This document shows positions 2,980 through 15,443 of a DNA stretch of 21,603 nt, in pieces (position 1 is the stretch's first letter; every line of letters starts with the position of its first letter). The notes under the pieces were generated by a model. It did not search any database, had not been told where the DNA came from, and was given only the letters and a program-made list of their open reading frames with translations. The position numbers and the translations under genes were made by a program. Source of the DNA: a virus; the IMG/VR virus record IMGVR_UViG_3300030118_002654, positions 9,038 through 30,640 of that record; one strand, written 5' to 3'.

Positions 2980-3003
2980 AGGAAGTGGCTTATGCCACCT
3001 CCT
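2980..3003 (-). other. Hairpin spanning the stop codon of the ArdC-like gene
   Basis: On the minus strand, AGGAGGTGGC and GCCACTTCCT form a 10-pair stem with one G-U pair and a four-base ATAA loop that contains the TAA stop. No T-run follows, so it is not a standard terminator. It could shield the mRNA 3' end, tune readthrough into the small genes downstream, or hide the strong AGGAGG it contains. Confidence 0.5.
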
Positions 3004-3874
3004 TATCTTCTAGTTGTTGTTTTTCTAAGAAGTCAATAGACTTCTGTGCTTGTGAAAATGCCCTAACCATTGCTTTTGAATCTTCTTTTATGAGTGAAAT
3101 CCAAGAGTTGAGATATTTAGCGTGATTCTCCCTAACAGTTTTCTCTACACCGAGAATTCTGCAAAGAAAAGCTGAACCAACTTCAGCAACTAATTCTTCT
3201 TTTGCATAATCTCTAATAGAATTACCTTGTAGGTCTCTATTACATCTGCTCTTATGACCAGTCCAATGTGTGAGTTCATGTAATAATGTAGAGTAATAAT
3301 CAACATCTGTATCAAAATCAGTCTTATTCGGCATACCAATGTAATCTCTTATTGGTGAGTAAAATGCTTGTGATTCGTCATGAAATATTTTTGCTTCTGT
3401 ATTGGCTACGAAAAGATCTACTGACTTTGATTTGCTTTCTGTAAGTTCTACTGAATGGACATTAGGTATAATATCAGATACAAAATCTTCTACTTGATCT
3501 CCGTTAAATACTGCATAATTTTTCCATAAAAAGTATTTAGGTAATTTGCCTGTGGATTTATAAAGAGCGAGTTCGTCATCTTTAAGCCATTCAGGTTTTT
3601 TATCTTTTACTTCACAGAAAACTACTCTGCTTGCTTTACTGCCTTTTTTGATTTGATAGCCTTTTTCTGACCATTGTTTGAAAGTAGCCCATTCGTGAGA
3701 TCTAAAATCTTGCACTGATAACCAAAAGCTATTCATACCTCTGTAAGGTTTTTTGCTTATATGGTTGATAGGTGCAGGTTTTGAAGTCCAAGGTTTGTGC
3801 CAATCAGTACCTTCTTTTTGCATAAGGTCTACAATCTTGTCTTGGATTTGTTCTAGTATTTCTTGTGTTTTCAT
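2990..3874 (-). CDS. ArdC-like antirestriction / ssDNA-binding protein with metallopeptidase domain
   Basis: A 294-residue protein with the two-part ArdC architecture. The N-terminal half (about 1-135) has family-typical PWTSKPAPINHISKKPYRGMN, GYQIKKGSKA and an aromatic region ending YAVFNGDQV, and is associated with binding single-stranded DNA. The C-terminal half has a zinc peptidase motif HELTH (His199, Glu200, His203), continuing WTGHKSR, and a following EELVAE helix (about 226-231) that would give the third zinc ligand. Plasmid ArdC protects entering DNA from restriction. In a phage, protection of incoming DNA or a replication role is the likely use, but this is inferred. It has its own copy of the repeated 19-base element and a roughly 80-base leader, so it may be transcribed separately from the block upstream. 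Confidence 0.88.
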   Translation of the reverse strand: MKTQEILEQIQDKIVDLMQKEGTDWHKPWTSKPAPINHISKKPYRGMNSFWLSVQDFRSHEWATFKQWSEKGYQIKKGSKASRVVFCEVKDKKPEWLKDDELALYKSTGKLPKYFLWKNYAVFNGDQVEDFVSDIIPNVHSVELTESKSKSVDLFVANTEAKIFHDESQAFYSPIRDYIGMPNKTDFDTDVDYYSTLLHELTHWTGHKSRCNRDLQGNSIRDYAKEELVAEVGSAFLCRILGVEKTVRENHAKYLNSWISLIKEDSKAMVRAFSQAQKSIDFLEKQQLEDKEVA

Positions 3875-7903: not shown

Positions 7904-8107
7904 ATGCAGTTAAAAGAATATTTAAAATCTAACAACTATACACAAATGTCTTTTATACAAGAGATAGAAACTCAAAGAAATGTGCGTATACCGCAAGGCA
8001 CTTTAGCAAAGTGGATAACAGGTGTAAGAATACCAAGAAAAAAAGAAATGATTTTATTGGTTGAGGTTACAGATGGCAAAGTACAACCAAATGATTTTTA
8101 TATGTAA
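7904..8107 (+). CDS. Cro-like helix-turn-helix regulator
   Basis: A 67-residue protein with a small lambda-repressor-like DNA-binding domain. It has LKEYLKSNNYTQMSFIQEIE as helices 1-2 and GTLAKWITGVRIPRKKEMIL as the recognition helix and following helix, ending DGKVQPNDFYM, as in Cro/CI-type regulators where the last helix is followed by a short tail. It has no peptidase or dimerisation domain of the CI kind, so it resembles Cro or a small operon repressor. The ATG at 7904 has no clear Shine-Dalgarno site. The gene starts the plus-strand sugar/modification operon and lies next to a copy of the repeated element, so it is the best local candidate for binding it. Confidence 0.75.
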   Translation: MQLKEYLKSNNYTQMSFIQEIETQRNVRIPQGTLAKWITGVRIPRKKEMILLVEVTDGKVQPNDFYM

Positions 8108-8505
8108 TGAAGATAGGTTTTACTTGTGGTGCCTTTGATCTATTGCATGCAGGTCACGTAGTTATGCTAAAAGAGTGTAAGGAAAATTGTGAATATTTGA
8201 TTGTAGGTTTGCAAACTGACCCAACACTTGATAGAAAAGAAAAAAATAAACCAGTTCAATCTATGTATGAAAGGTATATGCAGTTACAAGCTATTAAGTA
8301 CGTTGATGAAATAATTCCTTACGACACAGAAGATAGCTTGGTAGATTTGCTTGAATCCACACCTATCAATATAAGGTTTATTGGCGAGGATTATAAAAAT
8401 ATTAGCTTTACTGGCGAGGGTTTGCATAAAACTTTTTACACAAGCAGACGTCATACATTTTCAACAACATCACTCAGAGAAAGAGTACAAAAACAGGATA
8501 TATAA
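8107..8505 (+). CDS. Cytidylyltransferase-like nucleotidyltransferase (TagD/RfaE-C type)
   Basis: A 132-residue enzyme of the HxGH nucleotidyltransferase superfamily. FTCGAFDLLHAGHVVML contains the nucleotide-binding HAGH (His14, His17). RYMQLQAIKYVDEIIPY (56-72) and STTSLRER (119-126) match the R-x3-L-x4-YVDE and [IF]STT-x2-R blocks of glycerol-3-phosphate cytidylyltransferase and related enzymes. These join CTP (or ATP in some relatives) to an alcohol or sugar phosphate, releasing pyrophosphate. The length equals that of TagD. The substrate cannot be read. In this operon it sits just before a glycosyltransferase and an epimerase, so making an activated sugar or polyol for that pathway is likely. 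The ATG overlaps the regulator stop (TAATG). Confidence 0.87.
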   Translation: MKIGFTCGAFDLLHAGHVVMLKECKENCEYLIVGLQTDPTLDRKEKNKPVQSMYERYMQLQAIKYVDEIIPYDTEDSLVDLLESTPINIRFIGEDYKNISFTGEGLHKTFYTSRRHTFSTTSLRERVQKQDI

Positions 8506-9117
8506 ATGGAAACACAAAATATAGATATAGAAAAATTAAGTCCATATAAAAACAATGCTAGAAAGCATACCGAGCAACAAATACAACAAATTGCTAATTC
8601 CATAGTTGAGTTTGGTTTTGTAAATCCAATTCTTATAGATGAAAACCAAATGATTCTTGCTGGTCACGGCAGATATATGGCGGCACGCTATTTGCAATTA
8701 CCTGAGGTGCCTATTATTGAAATTAAAGACCTAACAGATGCACAAAAGAAAGCATTTGTTATAGCCGATAATAAAATAGCCAATAATTCAACGTGGGACG
8801 AAACAGTGCTTTGGCAAGAAATACAAGAATTAAACAAACTTGGTTTTGATCTAAATATATTGGCTTTTAATGAAATGGAGATCTTGCCTATTACTGATCC
8901 TAATGTTGTAGATGATCCTTTAGCAGAGTGGGAAAATATGCCTGAATTTATATCAGAGGACAATACTGCTCATAGAACATTGTATGTACATTTTAATAAT
9001 GAAGAAGAAGTTCAAAAGTTTGCAGAATTGGTAGGTCAACAGATAACTGATAAAACCAAATACATCTGGTACCCTGAACAAACAAACATGAACACCGAAA
9101 GTAAAAGGTATGAATGA
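8506..9117 (+). CDS. ParB/Srx-fold nuclease-like protein
   Basis: A 203-residue protein with an N-terminal ParB-like domain, about residues 3-95. IDIEKLSPYKNNARKHTEQQ, then FGFVNPILID, then ILAGHGRYMAARYL with the signature GHGR (53-56), followed by KKAFVIADNKIAN. After an acidic linker, a second small domain (about 145-195) has LYVHFNNEEEVQKFAELVGQ and KYIWYPEQ, a combination I know from phage ParB-like proteins near terminases and DNA modification genes. It does not have the helix-turn-helix part of a partition ParB, so plasmid-type partition is unlikely. Phage members have been discussed as nucleases, NTPases or DNA-modification helpers. Its place between the cytidylyltransferase and the glycosyltransferase supports a DNA-linked role. 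Confidence 0.85.
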   Translation: METQNIDIEKLSPYKNNARKHTEQQIQQIANSIVEFGFVNPILIDENQMILAGHGRYMAARYLQLPEVPIIEIKDLTDAQKKAFVIADNKIANNSTWDETVLWQEIQELNKLGFDLNILAFNEMEILPITDPNVVDDPLAEWENMPEFISEDNTAHRTLYVHFNNEEEVQKFAELVGQQITDKTKYIWYPEQTNMNTESKRYE

Positions 9118-10759
9118 TCCTAAATTTCCACTTTATATACCAAGCAAAGGTAGATATGAATCAAGATTAACTTCTAAATGGCTTGATAAAATAAATCTAC
9201 CTTACAAGTTGGTTGTTGAGCCAGATGAGTATGATTTATACGCTAATCAAGTATCTGAAGATAAATTATTGGTTCTTGATATGTCTTACAAGGACAAATA
9301 CGAGTATTGCGATGATTTTGGAACAGAGAGGCCAACAGGAAGTGGTCCTGCAAGGAACTTTATATGGGATCATTCTGTAAGTCAGGGGCATAAATATCAT
9401 TGGATAATGGACGACAATATACGGTCTTTTAGACGTATGAATAAAAATGAAAAGATAAAGGTCAACAATGGTTCTATGTTTGCCGCAATGGAAGATTTTG
9501 TATTGCGCTATAAAAACGTGGCTATGGCAGGACCTCATTATACTTTTTTTAGATCTGCGCGAAGTTCAAGTCCTCCGTTTACTCTTAACTCAAGAGTATA
9601 TTCCTGCAATTTAATTAAAAATGACGTACCTTTTAGATGGAGAGGCAGATATAACGAAGATACGATTTTATCTTTAGATATGCTTAAACAAAATTGGTGC
9701 ACTATTCTTTTTAATGCTTTTTTACAAGAAAAAATGACCACACAAACAGTTAAAGGTGGTAATACAGACACCATTTATGTTGATGGAACTTTAGATAAAT
9801 CACAAATGTTGGTAAATGTTCATCCTGATGTATCTGAACTTAAATGGCGATATGGAAGATGGCATCATTCTGTTGATTACAAAGTTTTTAAAACAAAGCT
9901 TGTAAGACAGGACGATCATAAAGTTACAAAAGGGATTAATAATTTTGGAATGAATTTAGTTGTAAAAAAAAATGAAACTTTGGATTTTGGTATAAACATT
10001 GAAGGCTTTATAGAATCTTGTACTAAATATATAGACGTAGAAAAGAAAAAATTAAGAGATGAAATTGATATCAGTATTAAACAGTTTCGTAAGCAGGAAA
10101 AAGATATAGGTGAACTTGGTCGTTTAGAAAAAATTTGGTATGACTCACTAAATGACAAGATTGATTATTCAGTTTATGCGGATGATTTTTACTTTGCAGA
10201 AGTATGGAAGTGTTGGATTTTGTACTCAAGAAAATATCTCAAAGATATACAAAAACCAAATTCACTTTTTGACAAAAGCATTTACAAAGATATGTCTAAT
10301 GTGGATTCAGTTTTGGATCTCGGTTGCGGTATGGGCTATACAACAGCTTTTCTAAAAAAGTTATTTTCAGATGCAAAAGTTATAGGTACAAATCTTGAAA
10401 ATACATTACAGTTTAAATTGGCAAGTCAACTTGGTACTACTTACGATTTTAAAATTATGGAAGATCTACCAGACAGCAATATGGATTTAATTTTTGCTTC
10501 TGAGTATTTTGAGCATATAGAAAGACCGATTGAACATTTAAAAGAAGTTTTAGAAAAAAACAAACCAACACATCTTTTAGTTGCAAATACATTTAACCAA
10601 CCTGCTATTGGTCATTTCATTAACTATAAAGATGGCAGTGATGTTCTTAATGGAAAGGAAACATCTAAAAGATTTAATGAAACACTAAAAAATTACGGTT
10701 ACAAAAAAATTAAAACTAAATTATGGAACCAAAGACCTAATTATTGGAAATTTCAATGA
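9110..10759 (+). CDS. TET-associated-type glycosyltransferase fused to a class I SAM methyltransferase
   Basis: A 549-residue two-domain enzyme. Residues 1-285 match the glycosyltransferase family found beside TET/JBP base oxygenases in phages (TAGT, GT-A fold): LYIPSKGRYESRLTSKWL, VVEPDEYDLY, SGPARNFIWDHS, HWIMDDNIRSF with a DDN metal site (101-103), RWRGRYNEDTILSLDML, KGGNTDTIY and YGRWHHSVDYKVF. A helical linker (290-395) follows. Residues 398-549 are a Rossmann methyltransferase with motif I VLDLGCGMGY (Asp403-Gly409) and IFASEYFEHIERP after motif II. By family, the first half transfers a sugar from a nucleotide sugar, in known contexts onto modified DNA bases. The second half could methylate the sugar or the base. 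The gene overlaps the ParB-like gene by eight bases and the epimerase start by four (ATGA), so the products are made together. Confidence 0.85.
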   Translation: MNDPKFPLYIPSKGRYESRLTSKWLDKINLPYKLVVEPDEYDLYANQVSEDKLLVLDMSYKDKYEYCDDFGTERPTGSGPARNFIWDHSVSQGHKYHWIMDDNIRSFRRMNKNEKIKVNNGSMFAAMEDFVLRYKNVAMAGPHYTFFRSARSSSPPFTLNSRVYSCNLIKNDVPFRWRGRYNEDTILSLDMLKQNWCTILFNAFLQEKMTTQTVKGGNTDTIYVDGTLDKSQMLVNVHPDVSELKWRYGRWHHSVDYKVFKTKLVRQDDHKVTKGINNFGMNLVVKKNETLDFGINIEGFIESCTKYIDVEKKKLRDEIDISIKQFRKQEKDIGELGRLEKIWYDSLNDKIDYSVYADDFYFAEVWKCWILYSRKYLKDIQKPNSLFDKSIYKDMSNVDSVLDLGCGMGYTTAFLKKLFSDAKVIGTNLENTLQFKLASQLGTTYDFKIMEDLPDSNMDLIFASEYFEHIERPIEHLKEVLEKNKPTHLLVANTFNQPAIGHFINYKDGSDVLNGKETSKRFNETLKNYGYKKIKTKLWNQRPNYWKFQ

Positions 10760-11595
10760 GAATACTTGTAACAGGTGGCTGTGGGTTCATAGGTAAAAAC
10801 CTTATAAATAATTTGGTGGATAAACATTCTGTAATGTGTCTTGATAACAATTTAACAAGCACAATGGAAGACACTGTTGCAGGTTGCGAATATATCTATG
10901 GCAATACAAAAGACTGCATGATGCTTTCACATAATAATTTTGACCTTATCTATCATTTAGGAGAATACTCTAGGGTAGAAAGAAGTTTTGAAGATATAGA
11001 TATTGTGTTTGAGAATAATTGGAATTCTATTTACCAAGTTCTAAAACTAACTAAATATTGTAATGCAAAACTTGTATATGCAGGTTCAAGTACGAAGTTT
11101 GGCGATAATGATACCAACTATAAAGAAAGTCCTTATGCATTTACTAAATACTGTAATGCAGAACTTGTAAAAACATATTGTGATTGGCATAACCTAAGAT
11201 ATGCCATTACATATTTTTATAATGTGTATGGTGAAGGAGAGATAGATAATGGTCCTTATGCAACTGTAATAGGTAAATTTTTAAAAGCAAAAAAAGAAGG
11301 CAAAAAAGTTGATATTACTGGTGATGGAAAACAAGTTAGAAATTTCACACACATAGAGGATATTGTAGATGCACTTATGATTGTTGCCGAAAAAGGACAA
11401 GGTGATAGATTTGGTATTGGTAGTGATGTTTCATACAGCATTATACAAGTTGCAGAGTTGCTTGACCTTGATTACAGATTTACACCTGATCGCAGAGGAA
11501 ACAGAAAAATATCTAGCCTTATAACTAAAAATACAAGAGATTTAGGGTGGAAACCTAAAAAAGACTTACAAAATTATTTAAAAAAAGTGCGTTGA
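10756..11595 (+). CDS. NAD-dependent sugar-nucleotide epimerase/dehydratase (extended SDR)
   Basis: A 279-residue extended short-chain dehydrogenase/reductase. The NAD site is VTGGCGFIG (G-x2-G-x2-G, residues 5-13). The catalytic pair is Tyr127 and Lys131 in SPYAFTKY, with the partner serine/threonine in AGSSTKFG (110-116). Further family blocks are FYNVYGEGE and VRNFTHIEDIVDAL. It most resembles UDP-glucose 4-epimerase/UDP-glucuronate epimerase-type enzymes, but the exact sugar cannot be decided by eye. It is slightly shorter than typical GalE (about 330 residues). I start it at the ATG at 10756, overlapping the previous stop as ATGA; a TTG 12 bases earlier is not needed. It would process the nucleotide sugar used by the glycosyltransferase upstream. 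Confidence 0.88.
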   Translation: MRILVTGGCGFIGKNLINNLVDKHSVMCLDNNLTSTMEDTVAGCEYIYGNTKDCMMLSHNNFDLIYHLGEYSRVERSFEDIDIVFENNWNSIYQVLKLTKYCNAKLVYAGSSTKFGDNDTNYKESPYAFTKYCNAELVKTYCDWHNLRYAITYFYNVYGEGEIDNGPYATVIGKFLKAKKEGKKVDITGDGKQVRNFTHIEDIVDALMIVAEKGQGDRFGIGSDVSYSIIQVAELLDLDYRFTPDRRGNRKISSLITKNTRDLGWKPKKDLQNYLKKVR

Positions 11596-14612: not shown

Positions 14613-15443
14613 TTATTTAAAACGTATTTTATTTATTTTCTCTCTTTCGTCTAATTTGTATTGTTTTCTTATATTATTGTTAATATCTAATACAGTTTGC
14701 AGAAGAGACATATTATCTTGTGAAAATTTAAGAAAGGCTAAAGTGTCTTTTGGTAGACAAGCACCACCAAAACCACGTTTTAGATCATAACCTGGCACTT
14801 TTGTATGACTTGACCCTATACGTTTATCTAAAGTGACACCTTTCATAACAGAGTTGTAAGAACAGTTATTGTCTTGGCAAAGATCATATAACTGGTTGAA
14901 GAAAGAAACTTTGGTAGCAAGAAAAGAATTACAAGCATACTTAATAAAAGATGCTTCTTGCGGTGTAACAATTACATAATGTAATGCTTCACACATTGAA
15001 TATCGTTTGTATAGATTAATTAGCTTATCAGAGGCACTATAATTACCGCCCATTATATGGTATTCGGCACTAACAAATTCTTCATTCGCTGAGCGTTCAG
15101 TAAGAAATTCTGGATTATAAATTATATTAGGGTTGTTGTGACTTGTTATAAGATCTCCAACAATATCTGGTGTCACAGTAGATTTAATAACTATTAAATC
15201 TGTGTTGGTCTTTTGTACAAGATAGTTGACTGTTTCTCTTACTATAGAGGCATCTACAAAACCTGTCTCTGCATTTGTTGGTGTAGGTACAGTAACAAAA
15301 ACCACATCATGTGGAGTTTTGCTTAAAATGGATATGTCAGTGTTATAAACTGGATCAATGATTGTTTTCTCTATACTAGGGTGTGTAAATGCAAAGTCTA
15401 CCGCTTTACCAACGAAACCATGTCCGACTATTCCTAATTTCAT
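14613..15443 (-). CDS. UDP-glucose/GDP-mannose dehydrogenase family protein, lacking the C-terminal domain
   Basis: A 276-residue enzyme of the family that oxidises a nucleotide sugar to its uronic acid. The NAD site is GIVGHGFVG (4-12). Active-site blocks are VTVPTPTN, IKSTVTPDIVGD, IYNPEFLTERSA (Glu112), FIKYACNSFLATKVSFFN (Lys168, Asn172) and GFGGACLPKD with the catalytic Cys229. The central helix follows, and the protein ends about 45 residues after the cysteine. Full members have about 390-450 residues with a C-terminal UDP-binding domain, which is absent here. The frame ends cleanly at a stop just before the terminator, so this looks like a stable short form rather than a broken gene. 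It is alone on the minus strand with its own copy of the 19-base element. It is likely part of the same sugar pathway as the epimerase. Confidence 0.87.
   Translation of the reverse strand: MKLGIVGHGFVGKAVDFAFTHPSIEKTIIDPVYNTDISILSKTPHDVVFVTVPTPTNAETGFVDASIVRETVNYLVQKTNTDLIVIKSTVTPDIVGDLITSHNNPNIIYNPEFLTERSANEEFVSAEYHIMGGNYSASDKLINLYKRYSMCEALHYVIVTPQEASFIKYACNSFLATKVSFFNQLYDLCQDNNCSYNSVMKGVTLDKRIGSSHTKVPGYDLKRGFGGACLPKDTLAFLKFSQDNMSLLQTVLDINNNIRKQYKLDEREKINKIRFK

Follow-up and report, generated by a model that had tools for sequence, protein, structure and literature searches.

A Phage Glycosyltransferase–Methyltransferase Fusion as a Candidate Two-Step DNA Hypermodification Enzyme

A single viral open reading frame joins a TET-Associated Glycosyltransferase (TAGT) to a class I SAM-dependent methyltransferase (MTase), and both catalytic domains are complete and conserved in one chain. 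The ORF (9110–10759, + strand; 549 aa) lies in the window, that is, the whole 21,603-nucleotide stretch of DNA analyzed here (G000:C1:9038-30640, from a 30,640-base virus record); the 9 kb upstream of the window carry ORFs that, read by eye, are of phage structural type. TAGT and MTase constitute a recurring module, split or fused, and the fused protein may be a two-step nucleic acid hypermodification enzyme performing sugar transfer and sugar O-methylation, most likely on phage DNA. Taken as a whole, we consider this interpretation to fall just short of an even chance.

The reading frame is open without interruption across 549 codons. Residues 6–217 match PF20691 (TAGT; E = 1.7e-42) at 146 bits against a curated cut-off of 27.5, covering the full profile (positions 1–205 of 205), and the glycosyltransferase (GT) half is assigned to phrog_842, beta-glucosyl-HMC-alpha-glucosyltransferase (E = 2e-45). 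The GT-A type TAGT domain extends over residues 6 to about 270 (9125–9919, + strand). Residues 399–498 match Methyltransf_31, _23, _11, and _25 (E = 1e-7 to 2e-6), each above its gathering score; the complete MTase module, N-terminal helices included, occupies residues 290 to 549 approximately (9977–10756, + strand) and contains DLGCG (403–407), SEYFEHI (464–470), and WNQRPNYW (539–546). The initial annotation had proposed a glycosyltransferase and a methyltransferase in a single polypeptide, and the Pfam matches to both in this 549-aa ORF, with copies in three lineages, bear this out; the DDN (101–103), YNEDT (181–185), and LDLGCGMG (402–409) motifs it reported are each found exactly at those residues. 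Within the TAGT domain, D101, D102, N103, and N182 and D184 of YNED are invariant among 22 sequences, and again among 21.

Full-length homologues exist in three other contigs. A second IMG/VR contig (L001) carries the identical gene, with 0 mismatches over 1650 bases, while divergent full-length fusions occur in L002 (553 aa, 70% identity) and L015 (559 aa; about 60% identity in the GT half and 56% in the MTase half). The identical copy and the two divergent fusions together indicate that the fused ORF is no assembly accident. In comparison with L002, the MTase half has a dN/dS of 0.23 and the GT half one of about 0.16 (its dS approaches saturation), which places both halves under purifying selection.

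The helical linker of about 100 residues originally placed between the two domains was not recovered, and a role for it as a structural spacer is ruled out. In stand-alone MTases, mostly 250–290 aa long, these helices are also present, and the protein starts at the equivalent of residue 290–300 or so; what follows residue 290 or thereabouts is therefore reassigned to the MTase module, with the helices as its N-terminal part. The so-called linker is part of METHYLTRANSFERASE, and the true connection between GT and MTase is about 15–20 residues (approximately 272–290). A model of residues 286–549 built with the 27-member family alignment has a mean pLDDT of 94.9; helices from residue 297 pack ahead of the Rossmann domain, and the former linker stretch scores above 92 except for its first ten residues. 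In a model of the full chain, both halves are well predicted, and pLDDT drops between residues 270 and 360 or thereabouts, where only three fused sequences inform the alignment. Because of this sparse coverage, a pTM of 0.58, and the misplacement of about 10 residues per row in the underlying full-chain alignment (A4), this model is uninformative on the relative placement of the domains. Two other full-chain alignments (A2, A5) were excluded because they placed stand-alone MTases over GT columns. In a PDB search with the full chain, the best 50 matches were all to MTases.

The MTase half appears to represent a previously undescribed, TAGT-linked phage family. Nothing in a set of 50,697 named phages matches it, while 22 records of that set contain relatives of the GT half at 39–53% identity. 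A search of IMG/VR with the MTase half, a query blind to TAGT, identified 36 loci, corresponding to 27 distinct MTases after near-duplicate reduction (window counted), and a scan of bacterial genomes with one pattern, from MTase alignment A1, confirmed nothing. The DxGCG sequence of motif I is present in 27/27 distinct MTases, and SEYFEHI, N493, and the WNxxPxxW region show complete or almost complete conservation among them. The Rossmann fold, modeled at the pLDDT given above and with matches of Z up to 13.7, and the glycine-rich motif I together identify a class I SAM-dependent methyltransferase. At the end of strand 2, 26 of the 27 members have an asparagine (Asn428) and not an acidic residue; an acidic residue holding the SAM ribose at this position is common in class I enzymes, though not universal, and its absence is no bar to membership. 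The C-terminal half is neither an inactive-looking nor an unrelated Rossmann fold, a concern that the initial annotation had raised.

The best fold matches of the MTase model are mostly small-molecule O-, N-, and S-methyltransferases at 8–15% identity, and include an rRNA-assembly methyltransferase-like chain. The MTase half lacks the [DNS]PP[YFWC] motif and any PF01555-type Pfam match expected of a DNA N6-adenine or N4-cytosine methyltransferase, as well as the PCQ motif and profile match of a C5-cytosine methyltransferase (PF00145). Named sugar O-methyltransferases likewise score below their cut-offs (NanM TIGR04371, 16.7 vs. 44 bits; Pse methylase TIGR03587, 18.5 vs. 112 bits), and FkbM (PF05050) gives no match; sugar O-methyltransferase chemistry is thus putative, no named model of that kind having been reached. 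With small-molecule and sugar O-methyltransferases (Methyltransf_11/23/31; UbiG, MmcR, COMT-like folds) the family has in common DxGCG, a Rossmann fold with N-terminal helices, and EH after strand 4; it differs from them in its low identity, its own N-terminal helical region, the asparagine in place of the strand-2 acid, and its own C-terminal WNxxPxxW, and fits no named family. Of the two products originally considered, an O-methylated sugar is the best fit, in keeping with the small-molecule O/N-methyltransferase fold and the linkage to a glycosyltransferase, fused or split; methylation of a neighboring base finds no base-methyltransferase family or motif in its favor.

MTase and TAGT are closely associated across the 27 distinct MTases. 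Three are fused to TAGT, 18 adjoin a TAGT gene or are parted from it only by a ParBC/ParB gene, and a further four have a TAGT 2.4–8 kb away; the two without TAGT include one (L039) that ends at a contig edge. The MTase is thus fused to, or one or two genes from, TAGT in 21/27 cases, and TAGT is in the same locus in 25/27. Both gene orders occur, with the MTase gene upstream in most split loci, and in one locus (L019) TAGT, stop, ATG, and MTase follow in one frame, a single stop codon short of fusion. In a maximum-likelihood tree of the 27 MTases, the three fused members form one clade with 99/99 support, for which one fusion event suffices; the fusion appears to have arisen once. An independent sample of 140 loci, of which 80 are viral and 60 come from genome assemblies, was gathered by TAGT-only patterns and contained 0 fusions and 4 loci with the MTase nearby. 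Fused and split versions thus comprise three fused lineages, that of the window included, and 18 split arrangements next to TAGT or one ParBC/ParB gene away, and the fusion itself is rare rather than common (0/140). The only MTase-bearing locus among the 60 genome-assembly loci is on a Bacteroidetes MAG contig, in the order MTase-ParBC-TAGT (L173:3229-5069). Cultured bacteria with a TAGT locus include Rhodovulum euryhalinum DSM 4868, Chryseobacterium gambrini DSM 18014, and Marivivens donghaensis KCTC 42776. As for whether the pairing is a described enzyme, no description was found in the open-access literature; Iyer et al. 2013 (NAR), outside that scope, is said to have described TAGT and may mention a pairing with a methyltransferase.

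The usual third partner of TAGT is a small conserved domain of about 85 aa, here termed ParBC, found no more than 1.2 kb from TAGT in 126/140 loci (75/80 viral, 51/60 genome). In the window it forms the C-terminal part (residues 120–203; E = 6.7e-38 to a profile built in the present analysis) of a ParB_N protein (8506–9117, + strand; PF02195, E = 1.8e-9, 38.0 bits vs. a cut-off of 26.3) whose gene runs 8 bases into the fused ORF. ParBC can stand by itself, follow ParB_N, or form an N-terminal fusion with TAGT; the fusion is seen in L025, L037, and named Vibrio and Aeromonas phages, among them Kuja (two copies), avDM6, and Vibrio 1.124.O. Among the loci examined, it was found only with TAGT. 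The ParB of Vibrio 1.213.O, where a ParB_N of the same kind is fused to an N6/N4 DNA methylase, and that of the TET-like operon in MED4-184 lack it; the idea that ParBC is common to such systems was accordingly rejected, only ParB_N being shared.

Several genes near the fused ORF could act in sugar-nucleotide metabolism. Immediately upstream of the ParB gene is a cytidylyltransferase-like protein (8107–8505, + strand; PF01467, E = 9e-17; phrog_7878), a candidate sugar or polyol phosphate activator for the donor. Downstream, an SDR-family NDP-sugar epimerase/dehydratase (10756–11595, + strand; PF01370, E = 7e-38) begins with an ATG overlapping the fused-ORF stop as ATGA, and a short UDP-glucose/GDP-mannose dehydrogenase homologue (14613–15443, − strand; PF00984, E = 1e-20; PF03721, E = 2e-13), with 276 aa and without a C-terminal domain match, is a possible sugar-donor enzyme. 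Such genes are absent from most MTase loci. In a set of 105 TAGT loci, 11 have a cytidylyltransferase and 7 an SDR within 2.5 kb of TAGT. The commonest same-strand neighbors over that distance are terminase large/small subunit-like, replication, and portal-like genes, the terminase and portal identities being by reading of representative sequences. The window also encodes an ArdC-type anti-restriction protein (ArdcN and zincin metallopeptidase; 2990–3874), a further counter-defense gene of the same phage.

Closely related phages vary at one precise place, the interval from TAGT to the epimerase gene that follows it. The MTase is fused in frame after ...LVVK in the window and in L001; in L003 and L004, whose TAGTs are 98% identical, this slot is empty, and in L003 the stop of TAGT and the start of the epimerase share an ATGA, an overlap with the epimerase common to L003, L005, and the window. 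L006 ends before the epimerase. The slot looks like a site where a decorating step is exchanged while the core stays the same, and the two close relatives without an MTase suggest that methylation is optional. In L005:1683-2597 and L008:2798-3712, the slot is held by a separate 304-aa glycosyltransferase-like protein with a DxD-like LDMDxxCLR motif (LDMDCVCLR); the L005 copy has no Pfam match.

In the mechanism we favor, the TAGT domain would move a sugar from an activated donor to a hydroxyl of a modified base in phage DNA or, alternatively, to a hydroxyl of a sugar already on the base, as with the T2/T6 TAGT. The C-terminal MTase would then O-methylate the transferred sugar with SAM, the fusion setting glycosyl transfer and methylation in sequence. 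Placing the enzyme on DNA is probably the task of ParB/ParBC, and supplying the sugar donor probably that of the neighboring cytidylyltransferase and SDR genes; the product would protect phage DNA against restriction or against enzymes recognizing plain glycosylated bases. DNA is probably the substrate, given three lines of evidence: the T2/T6 TAGT adds glucose to alpha-glucosyl-hmC in phage DNA (PMC13216743; PMC13390438), ParB_N recurs in the context of DNA-modifying enzymes, and terminase and replication genes are neighbors. ParBc genes, for instance, adjoin CmoX, a proven phage DNA cytosine carboxymethyltransferase family, in a set of 1660 ParBc sequences (PMC12783734). If the substrate is DNA, placement of the methyl group on the transferred sugar is slightly favored over placement elsewhere; the lack of a base-methyltransferase motif or family, the small-molecule-methyltransferase fold, and the linkage to a glycosyltransferase rather than a nucleotide enzyme point to sugar O-methylation as the second step.

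The weakest step of this explanation is the source of the acceptor hydroxyl. No thymidylate-synthase-type hydroxymethylase (PF00303) was found in 30 related records, mostly fragments; TET/JBP (PF12851) was also not found in these 30, a profile that gave no match in positive-control genomes either, and no C5 methyltransferase was found in 16. ThyX was rejected as a source, being present only in contigs of 178, 149, and 105 kb and no consistent partner, as were 2OG oxygenases as a consistent source, these occurring in G000, G002, G003, and G028 only. The sole hydroxylase candidate of the window is a 2OG-Fe(II) oxygenase (1371–1925, − strand; PF13640, E = 1e-15) also present in G002 and absent from most MTase contigs; its tie to the module is speculative. 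G002 (the L007 contig; 53,004 bases) is probably complete, its ends overlapping by about 136 bases with few mismatches, and encodes TAGT and three 2OG-Fe(II) oxygenase matches, one of them below cut-off. The acceptor hydroxyl is left unexplained by the lack of a hydroxymethylase match even in this near-complete genome: it may come from a 2OG oxygenase or from a host or other enzyme, or the TAGT acceptor may differ. In L012, a 2OG-Fe(II) oxygenase (PF13759; 3536–4174) directly follows ParBC-MTase-TAGT and is a candidate source.

A reading that we consider unlikely is that the module instead builds or modifies a glycan of the virion or cell surface (capsid, tail fiber, or host polysaccharide); the missing hydroxymethylase counts in its favor. 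Sugar-nucleotide genes beside a glycosyltransferase may also serve surface glycans or virion glycosylation, which counts against DNA as the substrate, and the cytidylyltransferase, SDR, and UDP-sugar dehydrogenase genes near the fused ORF fit such a role, as does the virion region of G002. There, a 1398-aa virion-type protein is followed by an FkbM methyltransferase, a cupin-like ORF, and a GT25/PLOD-type glycosyltransferase (L056:10117-12877). Similar cyanophage nucleotidyltransferase-GT clusters have been proposed to alter outer polysaccharides (PMC7824862). However, DNA is the acceptor for the TAGT family in T-even phages, most MTase loci are without sugar-nucleotide genes, and TAGT has ParB/ParBC, terminase, and replication genes as its conserved neighbors rather than tail or surface genes.

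Gene order raises a different alternative, in which the module does act on DNA, but the MTase works before TAGT or on another atom, methylating (or adding another SAM-derived group to) a base, base hydroxyl, or carboxylate and so making or capping the acceptor. The predominance of split loci with the MTase gene first is consistent with this, and the order ParB, FkbM-type MTase, TET-like protein, terminase in cyanophage MED4-184 suggests that MTases and base hydroxylases can be direct partners; moreover, phages use carboxy-SAM for C5-carboxymethyl-C (PMC12783734), and the asparagine at the SAM-ribose position leaves room for an unusual cofactor. Set against these points, TAGT comes first in the fusion, no DNA base-methyltransferase motif or family is matched, and the best fold matches are mostly small-molecule methyltransferases; on balance this alternative seems somewhat unlikely. 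Chance read-through joining two functionally unlinked genes is very improbable and largely refuted already: rarity of the fusion and the L019 genes one stop codon apart are compatible with it, but the MTase-TAGT association in 25/27 distinct loci, in both orders, and the retention of the fusion in three divergent phages, under purifying selection, are not.

The N-terminal half is a clear member of the family of beta-glucosyl-HMC-alpha-glucosyltransferases of T2 and T6 (PF20691, phrog_842), with a full-model match and DDN and YNED kept. However, the TAGTs of T2/T6 operate alongside a dCMP hydroxymethylase pathway, not found in the present related records, and the system described here has a C-terminal MTase and a ParBC partner in addition. 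TAGT is carried by phage contigs in the hundreds and by numerous prophage-like loci, with ParBC as its usual companion and terminase as a frequent neighbor, yet a thymidylate-synthase-type hydroxymethylase was found in 0/30 tested contigs; TAGT thus seems separable from the T4-type hydroxymethylase pathway. ParB-linked modules (ParB-N6/N4 methylase; ParBc-CmoX, the C5-carboxymethyltransferase of Synechococcus phage S-B43) and, likewise, the ParB modification operon beside terminase in MED4-184 have the same ParB_N next to a modifying enzyme, which here is instead TAGT plus an MTase without DNA amino-methyltransferase motifs. Another two-domain phage protein with an N-terminal GT is Thanatos TH1_060 (561 aa), thought to be a DNA pentosylation enzyme; its second domain is a phosphotransferase rather than a methyltransferase, and Thanatos encodes a hydroxymethylase (PMC12838424).

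The fusion provides a lead to function for an MTase family otherwise unmatched in the named phage genomes. The predicted modification, a methylated sugar on a base, is plausible as a product; if the prediction is true, some viruses carry methylated sugars on their DNA, hiding it from bacterial defenses. The more specific proposition that the DNA of some phages contains O-methylated glycosyl bases made by a TAGT and MTase module without a phage hydroxymethylase, and in the window's phage by one bifunctional enzyme, is advanced tentatively, as possible but rather doubtful.

Some further arrangements were observed in these searches. In MED4-184 (L053, 2911–5035), the order ParB, FkbM methyltransferase, "queuine tRNA-ribosyltransferase", terminase is possibly another DNA modification operon; the protein annotated as queuine tRNA-ribosyltransferase matches Tet_JBP below cut-off (E = 3e-6) and is perhaps misannotated. 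L009 and L010 each contain two TAGT genes close together, and in L077:693-2411 two tandem TAGT domains share one 573-aa open frame. In L113:1838-4231, TAGT and an apparent SNF2/DEAD-type helicase lie in one open frame of 798 codons.
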